Source of the DNA: Verrucosispora sp. NA02020
GTDB taxonomy: Bacteria > Actinomycetota > Actinomycetes > Mycobacteriales > Micromonosporaceae
Direction of reading: 5' to 3'
Assembly (NCBI RefSeq): GCF_013364215.1
Contig: NZ_CP054923.1
Coordinates: 6,200,001 to 6,264,000 of the forward strand
DNA length: 64,000 nt
This document shows, piece by piece, positions 3,009 through 54,035 of the stretch. The position numbers were made by a program, and so were the translations under genes. The notes beneath the pieces are model-generated. The model was not told where the DNA came from and ran no database searches. It was given only the letters and a program-made list of their open reading frames with translations. How positions within the stretch are numbered: the first letter of the stretch is position 1; every line of letters begins with the position of its first letter.

Positions 3009-3947
3009 TCAGGAGAAGTTCGTCGGATAGACGCGCCGCTTGGCACCGGTCTGCTGAGCGGCGGTCGCCTGCCGCTGCGCCACCGGGATCTGGGCGACCA
3101 TCGGCGGCGGCGCGACCTTCGTCAACGGTCCGGGTACGGCCAGTTCCTCGACCACCTGGATCTGGCCCGGCGGGATCACCTCCAGGGTCTGAAAGTTGTT
3201 GCTGTCACCGCTCTTGTCCTGGCGCCACCGGTCGTTACCGGTGATGCTCGCCTCCGGCACGTCGAAGCTGAGGACGAGGCCGCCGCACTCCGCCACGTCC
3301 CGGAGGGCGGGCTCGTGTTCTTTCATTCCCATGGCCCACTCGGTGTGCTGCCGCGCGTAGGAGAGCGCCACCTCGAAGCTGAGCGTGACGGTGTGCCAGC
3401 CCTGGTCCTTGTACTCCGCAGCGACGATGTGTTTCTCCCATCGCTTGCAGCCGATACCGCCACCGGCCTTGCCCGGGTCGAGTCCCACAGCCGAGATGCT
3501 GCCGGGCCCGGAATAGAAGTTCTCCCGGTTGGTGCCCTGGTAGAAGCGGCAGATCCCCGGAGGTGCGGGAGCCGGTGCCGGATTCGCCAACCGCCACAGG
3601 TGCCCCTGTCGCGTGTTGAACGCCTGGAGCGCGACCGGGTCGCCCACATCCACGGGGAGCTCGTGCAGGCGGGCGGCCAGCCGGTAGAGGATCAGCTTGT
3701 CGGCGATGGCGCCGAGCGCCGGACCTGCGTACGTGACGGAGAGAACGATCATGTTGGCAACCGGGAGGTAGTCGCTGCCGACCGGGGTGTCGAGAAGCCC
3801 GACACTCAGCGGCGCGGGCTGACCGGCATCGAGTGACGCCACGGCGTCGGCGACCAGCTGGTCCGTCCCGGCCAACTGGTGGAGTCGCGCGGTCAGTCCC
3901 GGGTGCGCGGGTGGGGGTGCCGGAAGGGCGCCTGGGGTGGGTTGCAT
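3009..3947 (-). CDS. Unknown protein with possible ADP-ribosyltransferase-like fold
   Basis: A 312-residue protein I do not recognise by family. The N-terminal third is helical with a proline-rich start. The middle holds ICRFYQGTNRENF, then a glycine-rich stretch (KAGGGIGCKRWEKH), a strand-helix TVTLSFEVALSYARQHTEW, a strand GGLVLSFDVPEASI and finally FQTLEVIPPGQIQVVEEL. This order (aromatic-x-Gly-Thr strand, S/T-rich strand plus helix, late Glu strand) is reminiscent of R/H-S-E ADP-ribosyltransferase folds. That is inference only. The start is ATG 3947, with TAGGGT as a -10 at 3955-3960, 7 nt upstream, suggesting leaderless transcription. The tail is Ala/Gln/Pro-rich. Confidence 0.7.
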   Translation of the reverse strand: MQPTPGALPAPPPAHPGLTARLHQLAGTDQLVADAVASLDAGQPAPLSVGLLDTPVGSDYLPVANMIVLSVTYAGPALGAIADKLILYRLAARLHELPVDVGDPVALQAFNTRQGHLWRLANPAPAPAPPGICRFYQGTNRENFYSGPGSISAVGLDPGKAGGGIGCKRWEKHIVAAEYKDQGWHTVTLSFEVALSYARQHTEWAMGMKEHEPALRDVAECGGLVLSFDVPEASITGNDRWRQDKSGDSNNFQTLEVIPPGQIQVVEELAVPGPLTKVAPPPMVAQIPVAQRQATAAQQTGAKRRVYPTNFS

Positions 3948-31540: not shown

Positions 31541-32479
31541 ATGTTCCGCTTCATCGTGCGGCGCCTGCTTCAGATGGTCCTGGCCTTCTTCGGCACCACG
31601 CTGATCGTCTACGCGCTGATGTTCGCCGGCCAGGGCGACCCGATCCAGGCGCTCGCCGGTGAACGTCCGGTGACCGAGGCCCAACGGGCCTACCTCACCG
31701 AGAAGTACCACCTCGACGCGACCGGGGTCGGCGGCTTCTTCTACCGCTACGTCGACTACCTCTCCAACCTGCTCCGTGGCGACCTCGGCGAATCGCTCAC
31801 CGGCCGGTCGATCGGCGACATCCTCGCCACCGCCTGGCCGGTCACCATCAAACTGGCGCTGATCGCTCTCGCGGTCGCCGTGATCTTCGGAGTCACCGCG
31901 GGCGTCCTCGCCGGCATCCGACGGGCCAGCATCTTCGACAACGCCACGCTGCTGCTGACGCTGCTGGTGCTCGGCATCCCGACCATCGTGCTCGCGCCGC
32001 TCGCGCAGTACTTCCTCGGCGTCCGGTGGCAGGTCTTCCCACCCACCGCCGGTGCCGACCCCGACTTCCGCTCCCTGCTGCTGCCCGGGATCGTGCTCGG
32101 CTCGCTCTCGCTGGCCACCGCGCTGCGGCTGACCCGTACCTCGGTGGCCGAGAACCTGCGCGCCGACTACGTGCGTACCGCCCGCTCCAAGGGCCTGCCG
32201 AACCGGCGGGTGGTCAGCGTGCACGTGCTGCGCAACTCGCTCATCCCGGTGATCACCTTCCTCGGCGTCGAGGTGGGCAACCTGATGAGCGGCGCGATCA
32301 TCACCGAGGGCGTGTTCAACATCCCCGGCGTCGGCTTCAACCTGTTCCGCGGCATCCGCACCGAGGACGGCCCGCTGGTGGTGGGCATCGTCAGCGTGCT
32401 CGTCGTGGTCTACCTGGTCTCCAACCTGGTGGTGGACATCCTGTACGCCGTCCTGGACCCGAGGATCCGCTATGTGTGA
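31541..32479 (+). CDS. Peptide ABC transporter permease, OppB/DppB type (operon 1)
   Basis: A 312-residue inner-membrane permease with six predicted helices. It opens MFRFIVRRLLQMVLAFFGTTLIVYALMF and carries the EAA loop VAENLRADYVRTARSKGLPNRRVVSVHVLRNSLIPVITFLG that docks the ATPases. It ends with the family signature DILYAVLDPRIRYV. ATG 31541 has GGGGAG about 10 nt upstream. It pairs with the OppC-type permease after a repeat-filled gap. Confidence 0.92.
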   Translation: MFRFIVRRLLQMVLAFFGTTLIVYALMFAGQGDPIQALAGERPVTEAQRAYLTEKYHLDATGVGGFFYRYVDYLSNLLRGDLGESLTGRSIGDILATAWPVTIKLALIALAVAVIFGVTAGVLAGIRRASIFDNATLLLTLLVLGIPTIVLAPLAQYFLGVRWQVFPPTAGADPDFRSLLLPGIVLGSLSLATALRLTRTSVAENLRADYVRTARSKGLPNRRVVSVHVLRNSLIPVITFLGVEVGNLMSGAIITEGVFNIPGVGFNLFRGIRTEDGPLVVGIVSVLVVVYLVSNLVVDILYAVLDPRIRYV

Positions 32480-32643
32480 GCGCAGCGAGGGGGCGGCATG
32501 AGTGAGCGCAGCGAACGAATCGGCCAGCGCAGCGGAAATGCCGGCACTGAGCGCAGCGAAGGGACGGCATGAGTGAGCGCCAGCGAACGAATCATCAGCT
32601 CAGCGGAAATGCCGGCACCGAGCGCAGCGAGGGGACGGCATGA
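32476..32643 (+). repeat. Tandem 71-bp mini-ORF repeats bridging OppB and OppC genes (operon 1)
   Basis: Two 71-bp units (32498-32568 and 32569-32639). Each starts with ATGAGTGAGCG and encodes 24 codons whose TGA overlaps the next ATG as ATGA: ORFs 32498-32572 and 32569-32643. The last overlap is the OppC start codon at 32640. A GTG mini-ORF of 9 codons (32476-32505) links back to the OppB stop. Each unit ends with a purine-rich Shine-Dalgarno (GAAGGGA or GAGGGGA) before the next ATG. The two products share the ending GNAGTERSEGTA. An extra C early in unit 2 is balanced by a later deletion, keeping unit length at 71 and the final frame. Confidence 0.75.
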
Positions 32644-49571: not shown

Positions 49572-50582
49572 CTACTCCGTCGCGTGCACCACGTCGCGTA
49601 CCTCGGCGAAGTGGCAGGCGCTCGGGTGGCCGGACTTGTCCCTGACCTGCAGCAGCGGCTCCTCTTCCGCACAGACGTCCTGCGCCTTCCAGCAGCGGGT
49701 ACGGAACCTGCAGCCGGACGGCGGGTTGGCCGGCGACGGCACGTCGCCGGTCAGGACGATCTGGTCACGGTGCCCACGCAACGTCGGGTCCGGCACCGGC
49801 ACCGCCGACAGCAGCGCCTGGGTGTACGGATGCGTGGGCGACTCGTAGATCTCGTCCTCGGTGCCGATCTCGACGATCTTGCCGAGGTACATCACCGCGA
49901 CCCGGTCGGCGATGTGCCGCACCACGGACAGGTCGTGCGCGATGAAGATGTACGACAGACCCAGCTCGTTCTGGAGCTTCTCCAGCAGGTTGATCACCTG
50001 AGCCTGGATGGAGACGTCCAGCGCCGAGACCGGCTCGTCGCAGAGGATGATCTCCGGGTTGAGCGCCAGCGCACGGGCGATCCCGATGCGCTGCCGCTGG
50101 CCGCCGGAGAACTGGTGCGGGTAGCGGTTGATGTGGTCGGGGTTCAGGCCGACCAGCTCCAGCAGCTCCTGCACCTTGGGCCGACGCTGGCCCTTCGGCA
50201 CCACGTCCGGGTGCACCTCGAACGGCTCGCCGATGATGTCGCCGACGGTCATTCGCGGGTTCAGCGAGGTGTACGGGTCCTGCATCACCAGCTGGATGTT
50301 CCGCCGACCCCGACGCCGTTCCTCGGAGCCGACCTTGGCCATGTTCTTGCCCTGCACGAACAGGTCACCGGAGGTCGGCGTCTCCAGACCCACGAGCAGC
50401 CGGGCCAACGTCGACTTGCCGCAACCGGACTCGCCCACGATGCCGAGGGTCTCGCCGCGCCGCAGCTCCAGGTTGATCCCGTCGACCGCGCGGACCGCCC
50501 CGACCTGCTTCTTGAAGACGATGCCCCGGGTCAGCGGGAAGTGCTTGACCAGGTCACGGGTCTCCAACACCACGTCACTCAT
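49572..50582 (-). CDS. Peptide ABC transporter ATP-binding protein, OppF/DppF type (operon 2)
   Basis: A 336-residue ATPase. Walker [10 protein letters not shown] (about residue 50), [25 protein letters not shown], signature FSGGQRQR, Walker [13 protein letters not shown] and [11 protein letters not shown]-terminal [16 protein letters not shown] and the cysteine group [17 protein letters not shown]...ACHF. It is very similar to the operon 1 protein at 34617. Start ATG 50582 overlaps the OppD-type stop by 8 bp (ATGAGTGA). It is the last gene of operon 2. Confidence 0.92.
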   Translation of the reverse strand: MSDVVLETRDLVKHFPLTRGIVFKKQVGAVRAVDGINLELRRGETLGIVGESGCGKSTLARLLVGLETPTSGDLFVQGKNMAKVGSEERRRGRRNIQLVMQDPYTSLNPRMTVGDIIGEPFEVHPDVVPKGQRRPKVQELLELVGLNPDHINRYPHQFSGGQRQRIGIARALALNPEIILCDEPVSALDVSIQAQVINLLEKLQNELGLSYIFIAHDLSVVRHIADRVAVMYLGKIVEIGTEDEIYESPTHPYTQALLSAVPVPDPTLRGHRDQIVLTGDVPSPANPPSGCRFRTRCWKAQDVCAEEEPLLQVRDKSGHPSACHFAEVRDVVHATE

Positions 50583-51612
50583 CGCCCTTGACCTCCTTCC
50601 AGAAGTGGCAGGCAGCCGTCCGGCTCGGCGACACCTGGTACAGCGGCGGCGCCGGGTCCTGCTTGCAGACGTCCTGGGTGTACCGGCACCGGGGGTTGAA
50701 GGCGCATCCACGAGGGATGTTGGTCAGCGCCGGGGGCAGGCCCTTGATGGCGCTGAGCTCCTGGCCCTTGAGGTCCAGCCGCGGGATCGACTCCAGCAGA
50801 CCCTTCGTGTACGGGTGGGCCGGGGTGGCGTAGATGTCGTTCACGCCGGCTTCCTCGATGACCCGACCGGCGTACATGACGGAGATCCGATCCGCCACGT
50901 CGGCCACCACACCCATGTCGTGGGTGATCAGCACCAACGCCATGTTCCGTTCCCGCTGGAGCTCGGCGAGCAGGGCCATGATCTGGGCCTGCACGGTCAC
51001 GTCCAGGGCGGTGGTCGGCTCGTCCGCGATCAGCACCTCGGGGTCGAGTGCCAGCGCCATGGCGATCATGACGCGCTGGCGCATACCGCCGGAGAACTGG
51101 TGCGGGTAGTCGTTCACCCGCTGCTGGGCCGCCGGGATCTTGACCAGGTCGAGCAGTTCGACGGCTCGGGCCTTGGCATCCTTGCGGGACATGCCCCGGT
51201 GCTTGCGGAACAGCTCGCCGAGCTGGAACCCGACCGTGAAGACCGGGTTCAGCGCGGAGAGCGCGTCCTGGAAGATCATCGCGATCCGGTTCGCGCGCAC
51301 CTTGCGGCGCTCGGACTCCGGCAGCTTGAGCAGGTCGACACCCCGGTAGAGGATCTCCCCACCGGTGATGAACCCGGGCGGGCTGTCCAGGATGCCCATG
51401 ATCGCCTGGGCGGTCACGCTCTTGCCGCAGCCCGACTCCCCGAGGATCGCCCGGGTCTCGCCGGCCCGCACGTCGAAGCTCACTCCGTTGACCGCGCGAG
51501 CCACGCCGTTACGGGTCCGGAACTCCACCTGCAGGTTCTTGACCTGAAGTGGCAACGCGTTCGGGTCGAGGCCCGGCAGCGCGTCCAACTTGACGTTCAC
51601 ATCACTGCTCAT
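50575..51612 (-). CDS. Peptide ABC transporter ATP-binding protein, OppD/DppD type (operon 2)
   Basis: A 345-residue ATPase. Walker [10 protein letters not shown] (about residue 59), [19 protein letters not shown], signature FSGGMRQR, Walker [13 protein letters not shown] and [12 protein letters not shown]-terminal [15 protein letters not shown] and the cluster [14 protein letters not shown]...ACHF that may hold an Fe-S cluster. ATG 51612 is fixed by the ATGA overlap with a repeat-encoded mini-ORF and a GGAG site; the frame extends to 51759 only because the repeats stay open. Confidence 0.92.
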
Positions 51613-51763
51613 GCCGACACTCCGCTTCGCTCCGCGCCAGCCTGAGACACCAACGCGCCGAGCCTGATGATTCGCTCGCTCCGCTCCCTCATGCCGACAC
51701 CCCGCTTCGCTCCGCGCCGGCCTGAGACACCAACGCGCCGAGCCGATTGATTCGCTCACTCAT
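51609..51763 (-). repeat. Two mini-ORF repeat units bridging OppC and OppD genes (operon 2)
   Basis: Reading on the minus strand, ATG 51763 lies 5 bp after the OppC stop and opens 24 codons (51689-51763). Its TGA overlaps ATG 51692, which opens 27 codons (51609-51692). That TGA overlaps the OppD start at 51612, both overlaps being ATGA. Both products end AERSGVSA and share [18 protein letters not shown]. The start distances are 71 and 80 bp; the 9-bp difference is a three-codon gap near the N-terminus. Each unit ends with an AGCG-rich stretch, GGAG or GGGG, just before the next ATG. Confidence 0.75.
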
Positions 51764-51768
51764 TCGGA

Positions 51769-52707
51769 TCACCGGAACTTCGGGTCGAGGGCGTCACGCA
51801 GTGCGTCACCCATCAGGATGAAGGACAGCACCGTGCCGACCAGCAGACCACAGGGGAAGAGCAGCAGCCACGGGTCCTCCAGGAAGTAGACCTGGTGAAC
51901 CGAGATCATGATGCCCCACGACTGCGCCGGCGGCTGGAGCCCGACGCCGAGGAAGGTCAGCGTGGCCTCCGCGGCGACGAACGAACCGAGCACGATGGTG
52001 GCGTACACCAGCATCGGGGCGATCGCGTTCGGCAGGATGTGCCGGAACATCAGCCGCGAGTTGCGGGCACCGACCGCCTTGGCGGCGTGTACGTAGTCCA
52101 GATCCTTCGAGGAGATGACGCTACCTCGGGTGATCCGGGCGATGGTCGGCCAGGCGAGCAGGAACAGCACCAGGGTCAGCGTCCAGATGTTCTGCCGCTT
52201 GATGACCGTGAGGAACACGATCGCGCCGAGCAGGAACGGCAGTGACAGGACGATGTCCATCACCCGGGAGATGATCGTGTCGACCCAGCCGCCGTAGTAG
52301 CCGGCGAGCAGGCCGAGCGTGCCACCGACCAGCACGATGCCACCGGTCGCCATGACCGCGATGACCATCGACGGCCGCGCGCCGTAGATCGCGTGCGAGT
52401 AGTAGTCGCAGCCCAGGATGTCGTACCCGAACGGGTGTTCCCAACTGGGCGAGATCCGGGACCGGTCGGTGTTGCAGGCACGCGGGTCCTGGCTGGTCCA
52501 GAGCTTCGGGAAGGCTGCCATCGAGCCCACCACGAGGATGTACAGGGAAGCGATCATGAAGACCGGGTCGCGCAGCAACTGCCGCCGGGCGTCCGCCCAG
52601 AGACTGGCGCTGCGCTCCTTGCCGCCGACCGGCGCATCGGTCGTGGGACCGTCGCCGCCCACCGGTGCCCCGCCGACGGCGGTGCCCGCACTGTTCAGGT
52701 CACTCAT
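51769..52707 (-). CDS. Peptide ABC transporter permease, OppC/DppC type (operon 2)
   Basis: A 312-residue permease with a 40-residue Gly-rich soluble head, then six helices from FMIASLYILVVGSMAAF. The hallmark GCDYYSHAIYGARPSMVIAV and the EAA loop SKDLDYVHAAKAVGARNSRLMFRHILPNAIAPMLV are present, ending LMGDALRDALDPKFR. The start ATG 52707 overlaps the last 80-bp-repeat mini-ORF as ATGA. It pairs with the OppB-type permease encoded upstream. Confidence 0.92.
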   Translation of the reverse strand: MSDLNSAGTAVGGAPVGGDGPTTDAPVGGKERSASLWADARRQLLRDPVFMIASLYILVVGSMAAFPKLWTSQDPRACNTDRSRISPSWEHPFGYDILGCDYYSHAIYGARPSMVIAVMATGGIVLVGGTLGLLAGYYGGWVDTIISRVMDIVLSLPFLLGAIVFLTVIKRQNIWTLTLVLFLLAWPTIARITRGSVISSKDLDYVHAAKAVGARNSRLMFRHILPNAIAPMLVYATIVLGSFVAAEATLTFLGVGLQPPAQSWGIMISVHQVYFLEDPWLLLFPCGLLVGTVLSFILMGDALRDALDPKFR

Positions 52708-52946
52708 GCCGACGCTCCGCTTCGCTCCGCGCCGCCATGAGGCACCAACACACTGAGCCTGATGATTCGCTCGCTACGCTCACTCATGCCGACGCTCCGC
52801 TTCGCTCCGCGCCGCCATGAGGCACCAACACACTGAGCCTGATGATTCGCTCGCTACGCTCACTCATGCCGACGCTCCGCTTCGCTCCGCGCCGCCATGA
52901 GGCACCAACACACTGAGCCTGATGATTCGCTCGCTACGCTCACTCA
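52701..52946 (-). repeat. Perfect 3 x 80 bp tandem repeat of mini-ORFs before OppC gene (operon 2)
   Basis: Units 52701-52780, 52781-52860 and 52861-52940 are identical; a partial copy of the unit edge follows. On the minus strand each encodes the same 27-residue peptide (MSERSERII...AERSGASA): ORFs 52864-52947, 52784-52867 and 52704-52787. Each TGA overlaps the next ATG as ATGA, so start spacing is 84 minus 4, exactly the 80-bp period. The last overlap is the OppC start. AAGCGGAG lies 7 nt before every ATG as a Shine-Dalgarno. It is a repeat of coupled translation starts, not a CRISPR (no spacers). Confidence 0.85.
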
Positions 52947-53032
52947 TGTCCACACCTCGTTTCGCTCCACCGGCACCCGGGAGCGGTCGGAAGAACCTGC
53001 GTCGGCATCGTCACCACGGTCCGGTCACTCAT
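52940..53032 (-). CDS. 30-codon linker ORF between OppB gene and the 80-bp repeats
   Basis: ATG 53032 lies within the OppB stop (ATGAGTGA, 8-bp overlap) and opens 30 codons. The stop at 52940-52942 overlaps the first repeat ATG (52947) in the same ATGAGTGA way. Its peptide (MSDRTVVTMPTQ...CGHE) is unlike the repeat peptides. It completes an unbroken chain of overlapping ORFs from OppB to OppC. Whether it is translated is unknown. Confidence 0.4.
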   Translation of the reverse strand: MSDRTVVTMPTQVLPTAPGCRWSETRCGHE

Positions 53033-54035
53033 AACGGATCCTCGGGTCGAGCACGGCGTACAGGAGGTCGACGAGCAGGTTGGCGATCAGGACCACCAGC
53101 ACCAGCATGGTCACCACGCCGATCACCACCGAGGATTCCCCGGTACGCGCCGACATCGTCACCAGCCGGCCGATGCCCGGCACGTTGAAGATGGTCTCGG
53201 TGACCACCGCGCCGGCCATCGCGGCGCCGATGTCGACGCCGAGGAAGGTGATCACGGGGATCAGCGAGTTGCGCAGCGTGTGCACACCGATGACGCGCTT
53301 GGTGGTCAGGCCCTTGGCCTTCGCCGTCCGGACGTAGTCGGCCCGGATGTTCTCCATGATGCTGGTCCGGGTGAGCCGGGCGGTGACCGCCAACGACGTC
53401 GCACCGAGCACCATGCCCGGGATGATCAGACTCGCCCAGGGGTAGTCGGGCTTGAATCCCGGGCTGAACATGCCGGTGGAGATCACGTCGGGAATCCAGC
53501 TCTGGCCGCGCAGGACGTTGCCGAACTTGACGCCGACGAACTCCCGCACGATCAGGCCGAGCACGAAGATCGGCACCGAGATGACGAAGACCGTGCTGAT
53601 CTTCACCGTGTAGTCGGCGAAGCTGCCGCCCCGCAGACCGGCGAGCACACCGGCGGCGATACCCACGACGGCCTCGAAGACGATGGCGATGAGCAGCAGC
53701 TTGAGCGTGAACGGAATGGCGTCCGCCACCAGGTCGGTGACCTCACGCTGGCGCAGGTTGATGCCGAAGTCGAAGTTAAGGAAGATGCCCTGCAGCCGGT
53801 CCAGGAACATCCCGAAGCAGGGGTTGCCCTTCTGGTCGAGGCAGGGGTCACCGTAGCCGAGTCGCTCGGTGATCGCCTCCAGCAGCGCGGGCGGCGGCGT
53901 CCGGTCCCCGAACAGCGCGCGGACCGGGTTCCCGCTGAACTGGATCGCCAGTGAAGTCAGGTAGTGGAGCAGGAACATGGTGCCCAGCACGGTGGGGATG
54001 AACTGGAGCAACCGTCGAATGACGTAGCGCCCCAT
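53025..54035 (-). CDS. Peptide ABC transporter permease, OppB/DppB type (operon 2)
   Basis: A 336-residue permease starting MGRYVIRRLLQFIPTVLGTMFLLHYLTSLAIQF, with six helices. The periplasmic loop is longer than in operon 1 and contains two cysteines (GDPCLDQKGNPCFGMF). The EAA loop is IRADYVRTAKAKGLTTKRVIGVHTLRNSLIPVITFLG. It ends DLLYAVLDPRIRYE. ATG 54035 has GAGGAG about 10 nt upstream; the upstream in-frame start at 54077 lies inside a hairpin. Confidence 0.92.
   Translation of the reverse strand: MGRYVIRRLLQFIPTVLGTMFLLHYLTSLAIQFSGNPVRALFGDRTPPPALLEAITERLGYGDPCLDQKGNPCFGMFLDRLQGIFLNFDFGINLRQREVTDLVADAIPFTLKLLLIAIVFEAVVGIAAGVLAGLRGGSFADYTVKISTVFVISVPIFVLGLIVREFVGVKFGNVLRGQSWIPDVISTGMFSPGFKPDYPWASLIIPGMVLGATSLAVTARLTRTSIMENIRADYVRTAKAKGLTTKRVIGVHTLRNSLIPVITFLGVDIGAAMAGAVVTETIFNVPGIGRLVTMSARTGESSVVIGVVTMLVLVVLIANLLVDLLYAVLDPRIRYE

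Follow-up and report, generated by a model that had tools for sequence, protein, structure and literature searches.

Introduction

The closest described systems to the locus analyzed here are the mycobacterial interspersed repetitive units (MIRUs), reportedly described by Supply et al. in 1997. MIRUs are not known to have dyad symmetry, and their insertion site is an overlapping stop/start (DTGA) between operon genes. Repeats of the REP, ERIC, and MITE type are palindromic or terminate in inverted repeats and are not known to respect coding phase. In one study (PMC12548453), MIRUs are described as seemingly mobile elements whose insertion at a start codon brings in an internal ORF coupled at −4 nt, a coupling that likely limits the effect on the host gene; another (PMC2734929) gives units of 40–100 bp at 41 places in M. 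tuberculosis, 12 of them polymorphic. The initial annotation of the present locus, which knew of no described system of this form, had thus overlooked the mycobacterial MIRUs as characterized in PMC12548453. For other organisms, a search of the open-access PMC literature, in which subscription journals are mostly uncovered, returned no account of a comparable element from beyond the mycobacteria, which is weak evidence of novelty.

Here, we report a repeat family identified from a 64,000-nt stretch of DNA (hereafter the window) that resembles MIRUs but is different and apparently more widely spread. Like MIRUs, its members are short repeats dispersed over tens of places (here 35) and often in tandem, they sit at start codons with a mini-ORF coupled at −4 nt (here at 33 of 35 places, along with filled and empty junctions), and their copy number varies, between isolates for MIRUs and between species-level relatives here (at 10/18 and 8/12 shared places). 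Unlike MIRUs, the main unit types are 80 and 71 nt long, the peptides are of the MSERSERIIR and MSERQRANHR type, the family occurs in Micromonosporaceae and many other actinobacteria, and some present hosts have no gene directly upstream (partly by eye). At 23 of 32 places an upstream coding-like frame ends in the first ATGA. With regard to symmetry, folding energy is ordinary in 8 units, yet there is a short covarying 3′ hairpin. Repeats of the REP, ERIC, and MITE type are likewise short and dispersed, whereas here overall folding is ordinary and phase is strict. Finally, the stop/start geometry and Shine-Dalgarno placement are those of ATGA coupling between neighboring genes, as treated in PMC12548453, except that here a repeated, inserted module carries the geometry in place of the two genes.

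A chain of identical mini-ORFs between oppB and oppC

Three perfect 80-bp units occupy positions 52708–52947 on the minus strand, between two oligopeptide permease genes (Table 1). Each encodes the same 27-codon product, MSERSERIIRLSVLVPHGGAERSGASA, the TGA of every mini-ORF lies inside the ATGA that opens the next unit or oppC, and AAGCGGAG stands 7 nt before each next ATG; for unit 1, the ORF list places the start at an upstream GTG (52864–52953). Coordinates and ORFs agree with the initial annotation on the three identical tandem units with their 27-codon ORFs and ATGA overlaps, AAGCGGAG is indeed found 7 nt ahead of the oppC ATG, and the OppB and OppC identities are supported by a Pfam BPD_transp_1 domain in both proteins and OppC_N in OppC. 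A fourth ORF of 30 codons does overlap both oppB and unit 1 by 8 bp as described, but calling it unrelated was too strong because its last ~28 nt look, by eye, similar to the unit's own 3′ end. This spacer ORF was found in 29 of 29 fetched relatives, and the ORF chain from oppB to oppC is unbroken in all 30 fetched genomes. Its first overlap, with oppB, is 4 bp in 22 genomes, where the period is 2 mod 3; in the other 8, the overlap is 8 bp and the period 1 mod 3. The spacer measures 76 to 92 nt in 28 of the 30, the other two showing an in-frame fusion with the first unit.

Table 1 Units, mini-ORFs, and flanking genes within the window.
Feature	Position	Strand	Basis
Unit 1 (oppB side), 80 bp, 27-aa ORF 52864-52947	52868..52947	-	Sequence
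Unit 2, 80 bp, identical, ORF 52784-52867	52788..52867	-	Sequence
Unit 3, 80 bp, identical, ORF 52704-52787, TGA overlapping oppC ATG	52708..52787	-	Sequence
AAGCGGAG, Shine-Dalgarno-like stretch of unit 3	52715..52722	-	7 nt upstream of oppC ATG
Native oppB-oppC spacer ORF, 30 aa, 8-bp overlap at each end	52940..53032	-	ORF list, relatives
oppC, downstream gene	51769..52707	-	Pfam BPD_transp_1 + OppC_N
oppB, upstream gene (stretch scanned)	53025..54020	-	Pfam BPD_transp_1 (permease)
71-nt unit, second array between oppC and oppD	51693..51763	-	BLAST, ORF walk
80-nt unit, second array, TGA overlapping oppD start	51613..51692	-	BLAST, ORF walk
oppD-like ATPase downstream of second array	50575..51612	-	Pfam ABC_tran, oligo_HPY
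Truncated 9-codon mini-ORF opening array of other opp operon	32472..32501	+	By eye; 8-bp overlap with oppB, ATGA with next unit
71-nt unit, other opp operon, between oppB and oppC	32498..32568	+	BLAST, ORF walk
71-nt unit, other opp operon, TGA overlapping oppC start at 32640	32569..32639	+	ORF walk; Pfam on host

A dispersed family coupled to start codons

The array is not a one-off: BLAST with one unit gave at least 59 matches in the 7.28-Mb genome (40 of 51 candidates scored), and a pattern search contributed one further place (backward-read control, 0), for a total of ~60 copies at 35 places. An ORF walk recovered an uninterrupted chain of mini-ORFs, joined by NTGA overlaps and leading into a long ORF, at 32 of the 35 places. 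The 58 chained units measure 80 nt (35 units), 71 nt (12), 74 nt (4), 77 nt (2), 65 nt (2), and 68, 50, and 26 nt (one each), and the 32 chained places hold one mini-ORF (12 places), two (14), or three (6). Since copies share ancestry, such counts overstate the number of independent events.

The ORF walk itself imposes phase, and coupling was therefore retested from homology, i.e., from profile boundaries, by requiring that an ORF of 90 or more codons start at the NTGA where the last unit ends, with the frame open across that unit; this test also passes units without an intact mini-ORF start. It was passed at 33/35 places in the source genome, 24/24 in the relative G061, and 33/39 in the relative G146. 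The two failing copies in the source genome are L006, in which a 5′ fragment forms the N-terminus of the host ORF and the preceding unit is coupled, and L020, a relic lying where a gene ends; six copies fail in G146 (L382, L384, L386, L394, L403, and L407). The source genome has one clear relic (6137459), and in G061 the first ATGA is altered in copies L355 and L359. The unit is thus portable, as the initial annotation held, and at 33 of 35 places it occupies a start codon and keeps ATGA phase; the own-genome search for copies that ignore start codons or phase, named there as evidence against it, yielded only two, one of which is coupled one unit earlier.

Array periods point the same way. Taken from homology only, they are 71, 74, 80, or 81 nt and equal 2 mod 3 in 24/25 cases in the source genome, 5/6 in G061, and 5/6 in G146, in line with the earlier proposal that the period, ORF length minus 4, is set by the coupling geometry. 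The three phase-breaking arrays (L026, its G061 orthologue L364, and L383) all have an 81-nt period, and in these arrays the first ORF runs on through the second unit and stops at the following NTGA (161 nt). In L026 and L364, the inherited 81-nt period joins two mini-ORFs into a 54-codon ORF that ends on the host ATGA. Within arrays, units share a mean identity of 0.93 (29 pairs), as opposed to 0.74 between arrays (1511 pairs).

Downstream ORFs matched a Pfam family at 29 of 32 places (the scan covering all hosts but those of c14, c21, and c31), including ABC permeases, glycerol-3-phosphate dehydrogenase, DHBP synthase/GTP cyclohydrolase II, porphobilinogen deaminase, a PLP enzyme that we read as TrpB, 2-oxoacid dehydrogenase E2, a Fur-family regulator, and others. 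The upstream frames that end exactly in the first ATGA at 23 places have 90 or more codons and coding-like GC3. Several of the remaining places are leader genes, and in some cases the transcript appears to begin with the host itself (both by eye), such that an operon junction would not be necessary for the unit. Host start codons are ATGA at 30 places and GTGA at two, and the NTG is followed by AGC or AGT in 29 of 32 hosts and by ACC in the other three. Of 34 other 4-bp NTGA overlaps in these stretches, ATGA accounts for 11, and AGC or AGT follows in 8 (29/32 vs 8/34, Fisher p = 2e-8, computed on rows that are not independent). This AG(C/T) preference, together with the reuse of the same start codons, points to targeting, possibly through short homology with the unit's own end.

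In the trp operon copy (L014, about 3660–3700, minus strand), the 3′ end of a unit now forms the C-terminus of TrpB, GILGSERSGAAA*; the TrpB end in G061 is similar, and other relatives read GILDKE*, GILDKER*, or GILDKEQ* (by eye).

Presence, absence, and turnover among relatives

We next compared junctions between relatives. For oppB-oppC, the best 30 junctions were used, i.e., the source genome and 29 of 150 matching relatives. No unit is present in 23 of them, one is found in L033, L040, L045, and L046, two in L031 and L032, and three in the source genome; the unit of L040 is joined in frame to the spacer. An empty junction typically reads GAGGTGTGGAC/ATGAG and a filled one GAGGTGTGGAC/unit(s)/ATGAG. 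The filled or empty state at oppC requires six changes when placed on a tree of the flanks, at least five of these changes being forced by well-supported branches, and the state is unclustered (239–244 of 500 label shuffles need as few changes).

Other hosts, read by eye, show the same mixture. At the trpB junction, 24 of 30 loci had the landmark: 4 units are clear, 3 diverged, and 2 remnant-like, and 15 junctions are empty. The trpA junction was readable in 16 of 30 loci (3 filled, 13 empty), and a ribBA-type gene in 29 of 30 (7 filled, 22 without, the filled ones occurring in two upstream contexts). Ahead of a leader gene (26 of 30 readable), 11 units are clear, 5 are decayed and lack the first ATG, 4 are 3′ remnants or broken, and 6 loci are empty. 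The five decayed units (L295, L299, L300, L301, and L303) retain the 3′ Shine-Dalgarno end (by eye), and the mini-ORF is therefore dispensable at least there. At the trpC-trpB junction of L183 and L198, a 7-codon mini-ORF with a 20-nt period lies in coupling phase before trpB (by eye), and perhaps represents the last remnant of a unit.

G061 and G146 are species-level relatives rather than isolates of one species. G061 (flanks 85–98% identical) has units in common with the source genome at 18 of the 35 places, and at 10 of them the two carry different numbers of full units; with G146, 12 places are shared and full-unit number differs at 8, a 13th match (opp operon 1, 75% identity) having been dropped as a paralogue. 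Unshared places pool regions missing from the relative with regions that are empty. Overall, these copy-number differences look like turnover.

Reading frame, peptide, and 3′ hairpin

Among 29 distinct 80-nt units, the middle segment is read in two frames, giving the SERSERIIR type in 14 and the SERQRANHR type in 14, and these frames arise through compensating one-base indels. All 41 real units examined keep the frame open, compared to 43–50% after block resampling of the alignment (the 41 rows were picked from chained units, excluding 81-nt and relic copies). Single-base codon differences are synonymous at a share of 0.243 (197/810) and 0.244 (178/730), against expectations of 0.261 and 0.260. 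The first residues of the peptide are conserved, and a Pfam scan of the mini-ORF peptide found no family. Conservation of the peptide was rejected on the grounds of the two alternative frames and of substitutions without synonymous bias. Taken together, the sequences indicate that the frame is under constraint while the peptide drifts neutrally.

A GGAG, GAGG, or AGGA motif occurs near the end of 56/58 chained units (26% in mononucleotide shuffles). Here, the spacer between Shine-Dalgarno and ATG pairs with the sequence preceding the Shine-Dalgarno, forming a 3′ hairpin with compensating changes. Alignment columns 56–61 and 75–80 covary, with 11 cells changed on both sides vs 3.0 in shuffles, and 92.6% of hairpin cells are paired, where shuffles give 88.2% and sliding gives at most 53%. 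The number of column pairs with a change on both sides, three, was matched in 51 of 500 shuffles, and relatedness between rows raises measures of this kind. A strong fold of the entire unit was rejected: 8 units from the source genome showed no folding advantage over shuffles (z −0.5 to +1.2).

A coupled 80-nt unit of different sequence was observed in genome G476, from another family of the class (L214:1501-1664), with its GGAGGTG buried in a 10-bp stem. L214 has a z-score of −2.6, and a neighboring copy −0.7. Such a buried Shine-Dalgarno would be a natural design for strict coupling.

Relationship to MIRUs

For a direct comparison, a MIRU core was used as the query. Of 351 genomes from a related family, it matched 4, which belong to one genus, and led to a 53-bp unit running from ATGA to ATGA with an 18-codon ORF (53 is 2 mod 3). 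An NTGA leading into a long ORF was found 29 nt after the core start in 8 of the 11 loci fetched (two of these 8 belonging to the same array). One locus presumably precedes the start of RegX3. Between the present unit and the 53-bp unit, the best nhmmer E-value was 0.39, a weak match of the 3′ part, and 12–26 of 300 whole-unit shuffles scored as well, as did 15–58 of 300 in the core-only comparison. This similarity is not significant and does not establish a shared origin. Since the architecture is the same and the similarity weak and non-significant, we classified the family as MIRU-like and not as MIRU.

A probable start-codon-inserting element and its alternatives

We consider it probable (about 0.85) that these units form a dispersed repeat family, mobile now or until recently, whose insertions fall precisely on start codons and which is translationally transparent and works in a MIRU-like manner. 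This interpretation is built on the place, phase, and orientation of units, on their presence or absence between relatives, and on a frame kept without peptide constraint, all of which can be read from the sequences. A unit would insert at a start codon, mostly of type ATGAG(C/T), and would bring a mini-ORF that extends from its first ATG to a TGA within the host ATGA, along with its own Shine-Dalgarno. Ribosomes coming from the native leader or the upstream gene would pass through the mini-ORF(s) by translation, terminate, and re-initiate at the host gene, and the insertion would therefore cost little expression. We infer mini-ORF translation, re-initiation, and a near-neutral cost from this arrangement. 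Being located at start codons with relay ORFs, units seem able to spread without silencing the host gene. As for movement, our guess is that it involves short homology between the ATGAGC end of the unit and its target.

The frame constraint could also be explained without targeting, if insertion were random and only in-frame landings at start codons survived selection, and decayed copies do exist. However, harmless non-coding copies would then be expected, and only 1–2 of the 35 places lie off a host start codon; AG(C/T) after NTG is common to hosts and unit (29/32 vs 8/34 in other overlaps), and units entered or left the oppC start codon on at least five occasions, which leaves this alternative unlikely. 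The initial annotation had also suggested that copy number tunes the OppB:OppC ratio. Full-unit number between these genes does range from 0 to 3 and each unit would add a re-initiation step, but a regulatory module setting the ratio of downstream to upstream protein appears quite improbable: host functions are unrelated (permeases, porphobilinogen deaminase, a riboflavin enzyme, a Fur-family regulator, and others), full-unit number differs from G061 at 10 of 18 shared places, and the unit is absent from 23 of 30 oppC and 15 of 24 trpB junctions. A mini-ORF peptide (MSERSERIIR...) functional in its own right might be invoked for the almost always open frame and the conserved first residues; with two middle frames in 14 and 14 of 29 distinct 80-nt units, no synonymous bias in substitutions, and no Pfam family, we regard it as highly unlikely. 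Hardly credible at all is an assembly artefact or tandem slippage alone, for which the identity of the three units could be cited: the family is dispersed in many genomes, with differing units at differing places, and slippage as the sole process conflicts with an identity of 0.93 within arrays vs 0.74 between them, although local duplication does explain the arrays themselves.

Another proposal concerns RNA structure, with the 3′ hairpin over the Shine-Dalgarno and spacer making the host gene strictly dependent on mini-ORF translation. Covariation of columns 56–61/75–80 beyond shuffles and the 10-bp stem over GGAGGTG in the distant version, L214, are in its favor, whereas the 8 units tested from the source genome fold no better than shuffles and three pairs changed on both sides were reached in 51 of 500 shuffles, with kinship inflating the measure. 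We hold this proposal tentatively and with some doubt; it is compatible with a mobile, start-codon-inserting repeat and would stand alongside it instead of replacing it.

On a broader scale, the family may be part of an actinobacteria-wide class of start-codon-targeting, transparent, mobile micro-elements, with MIRUs as a branch or a convergent case, for which we see the odds as evenly balanced. The underlying process would recognize the start-codon region, perhaps through ATGAGC annealing, selection would keep the relay frame and not the peptide, and the native oppB-oppC spacer would be an old member. The family carries the MIRU idea past the mycobacteria and raises the question of how a DNA insertion finds start codons. 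These natural replicates suggest that the start codons of biosynthetic and transport genes tolerate a ribosome relay over one to three dispensable mini-ORFs, and the combination of a kept frame, a free peptide, and compensated indels provides a comparative test of translational coupling. In addition, since units are readable as N-termini (MSERSE...) or, in trpB here, as C-termini, start-site annotation is at risk.

Distribution across actinobacteria

Finally, we evaluated the taxonomic range of the family with a 24-nt start pattern run on named genomes, which gave at least 120 stretches, analyzed as sets of 80 and 40. The matches listed include Micromonospora, Catellatospora, Phytohabitans, Plantactinospora, Planosporangium, Actinocatenispora, Virgisporangium, Nocardia, Aeromicrobium, Nocardioides, Microbispora, Kutzneria, Actinopolymorpha, Kitasatospora, Streptomyces, Nonomuraea, one Mycobacterium, and others. 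Loci from named Micromonospora can be aligned with the window's at up to about 90%, making Micromonospora its probable genus. In the first 80 stretches, 65 of 86 actinobacterial matches chain into an ORF of 100 or more aa; the rest comprise 18 that leave the stretch, 2 that themselves open a long ORF, and 1 failure; in the other 40, with 46 matches listed, the corresponding numbers are 31 chaining, 13 running off, and 2 starting a long ORF. Among the matches listed, 96 of the 101 that could be scored (65/68 and 31/33) thus chain by NTGA into an ORF of 100 or more aa, compared to 157 of 1033 (102/675 and 55/358) for other ATGA mini-ORFs of 12–45 aa at the same loci. Exact 24-nt matches were also seen in haloarchaea (3/89; L061, L083, and L125, from Halogranum and Natrinema). 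One is coupled and two are uncoupled, and we took these matches for chance rather than family membership.

A profile search for the family itself, with stricter filters, detected it in at least 83 of 121 genomes and at least 29 of 44 genera of the source organism's own family, with 1 to 43 scored copies, and a stricter pattern applied to an even draw of the phylum matched 6 of 296 genomes (control, 0). A looser pattern, applied to the Nocardia-type family, matched 16 of 121 genomes, with a single hit in 121 for the backward control. When 33 of these looser matches were fetched, 14 chained, 8 failed, 6 started long ORFs, and 5 ran off. Seven of the 8 failing matches come from a single genus, g249, and resemble a separate repeat without coupling. 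The g249 loci (L245–L248 and L258–L260) carry a different dispersed repeat that has the same first bases, ATGAGCGAGCG.AGCGATGCGAAG, and is mostly uncoupled from genes.
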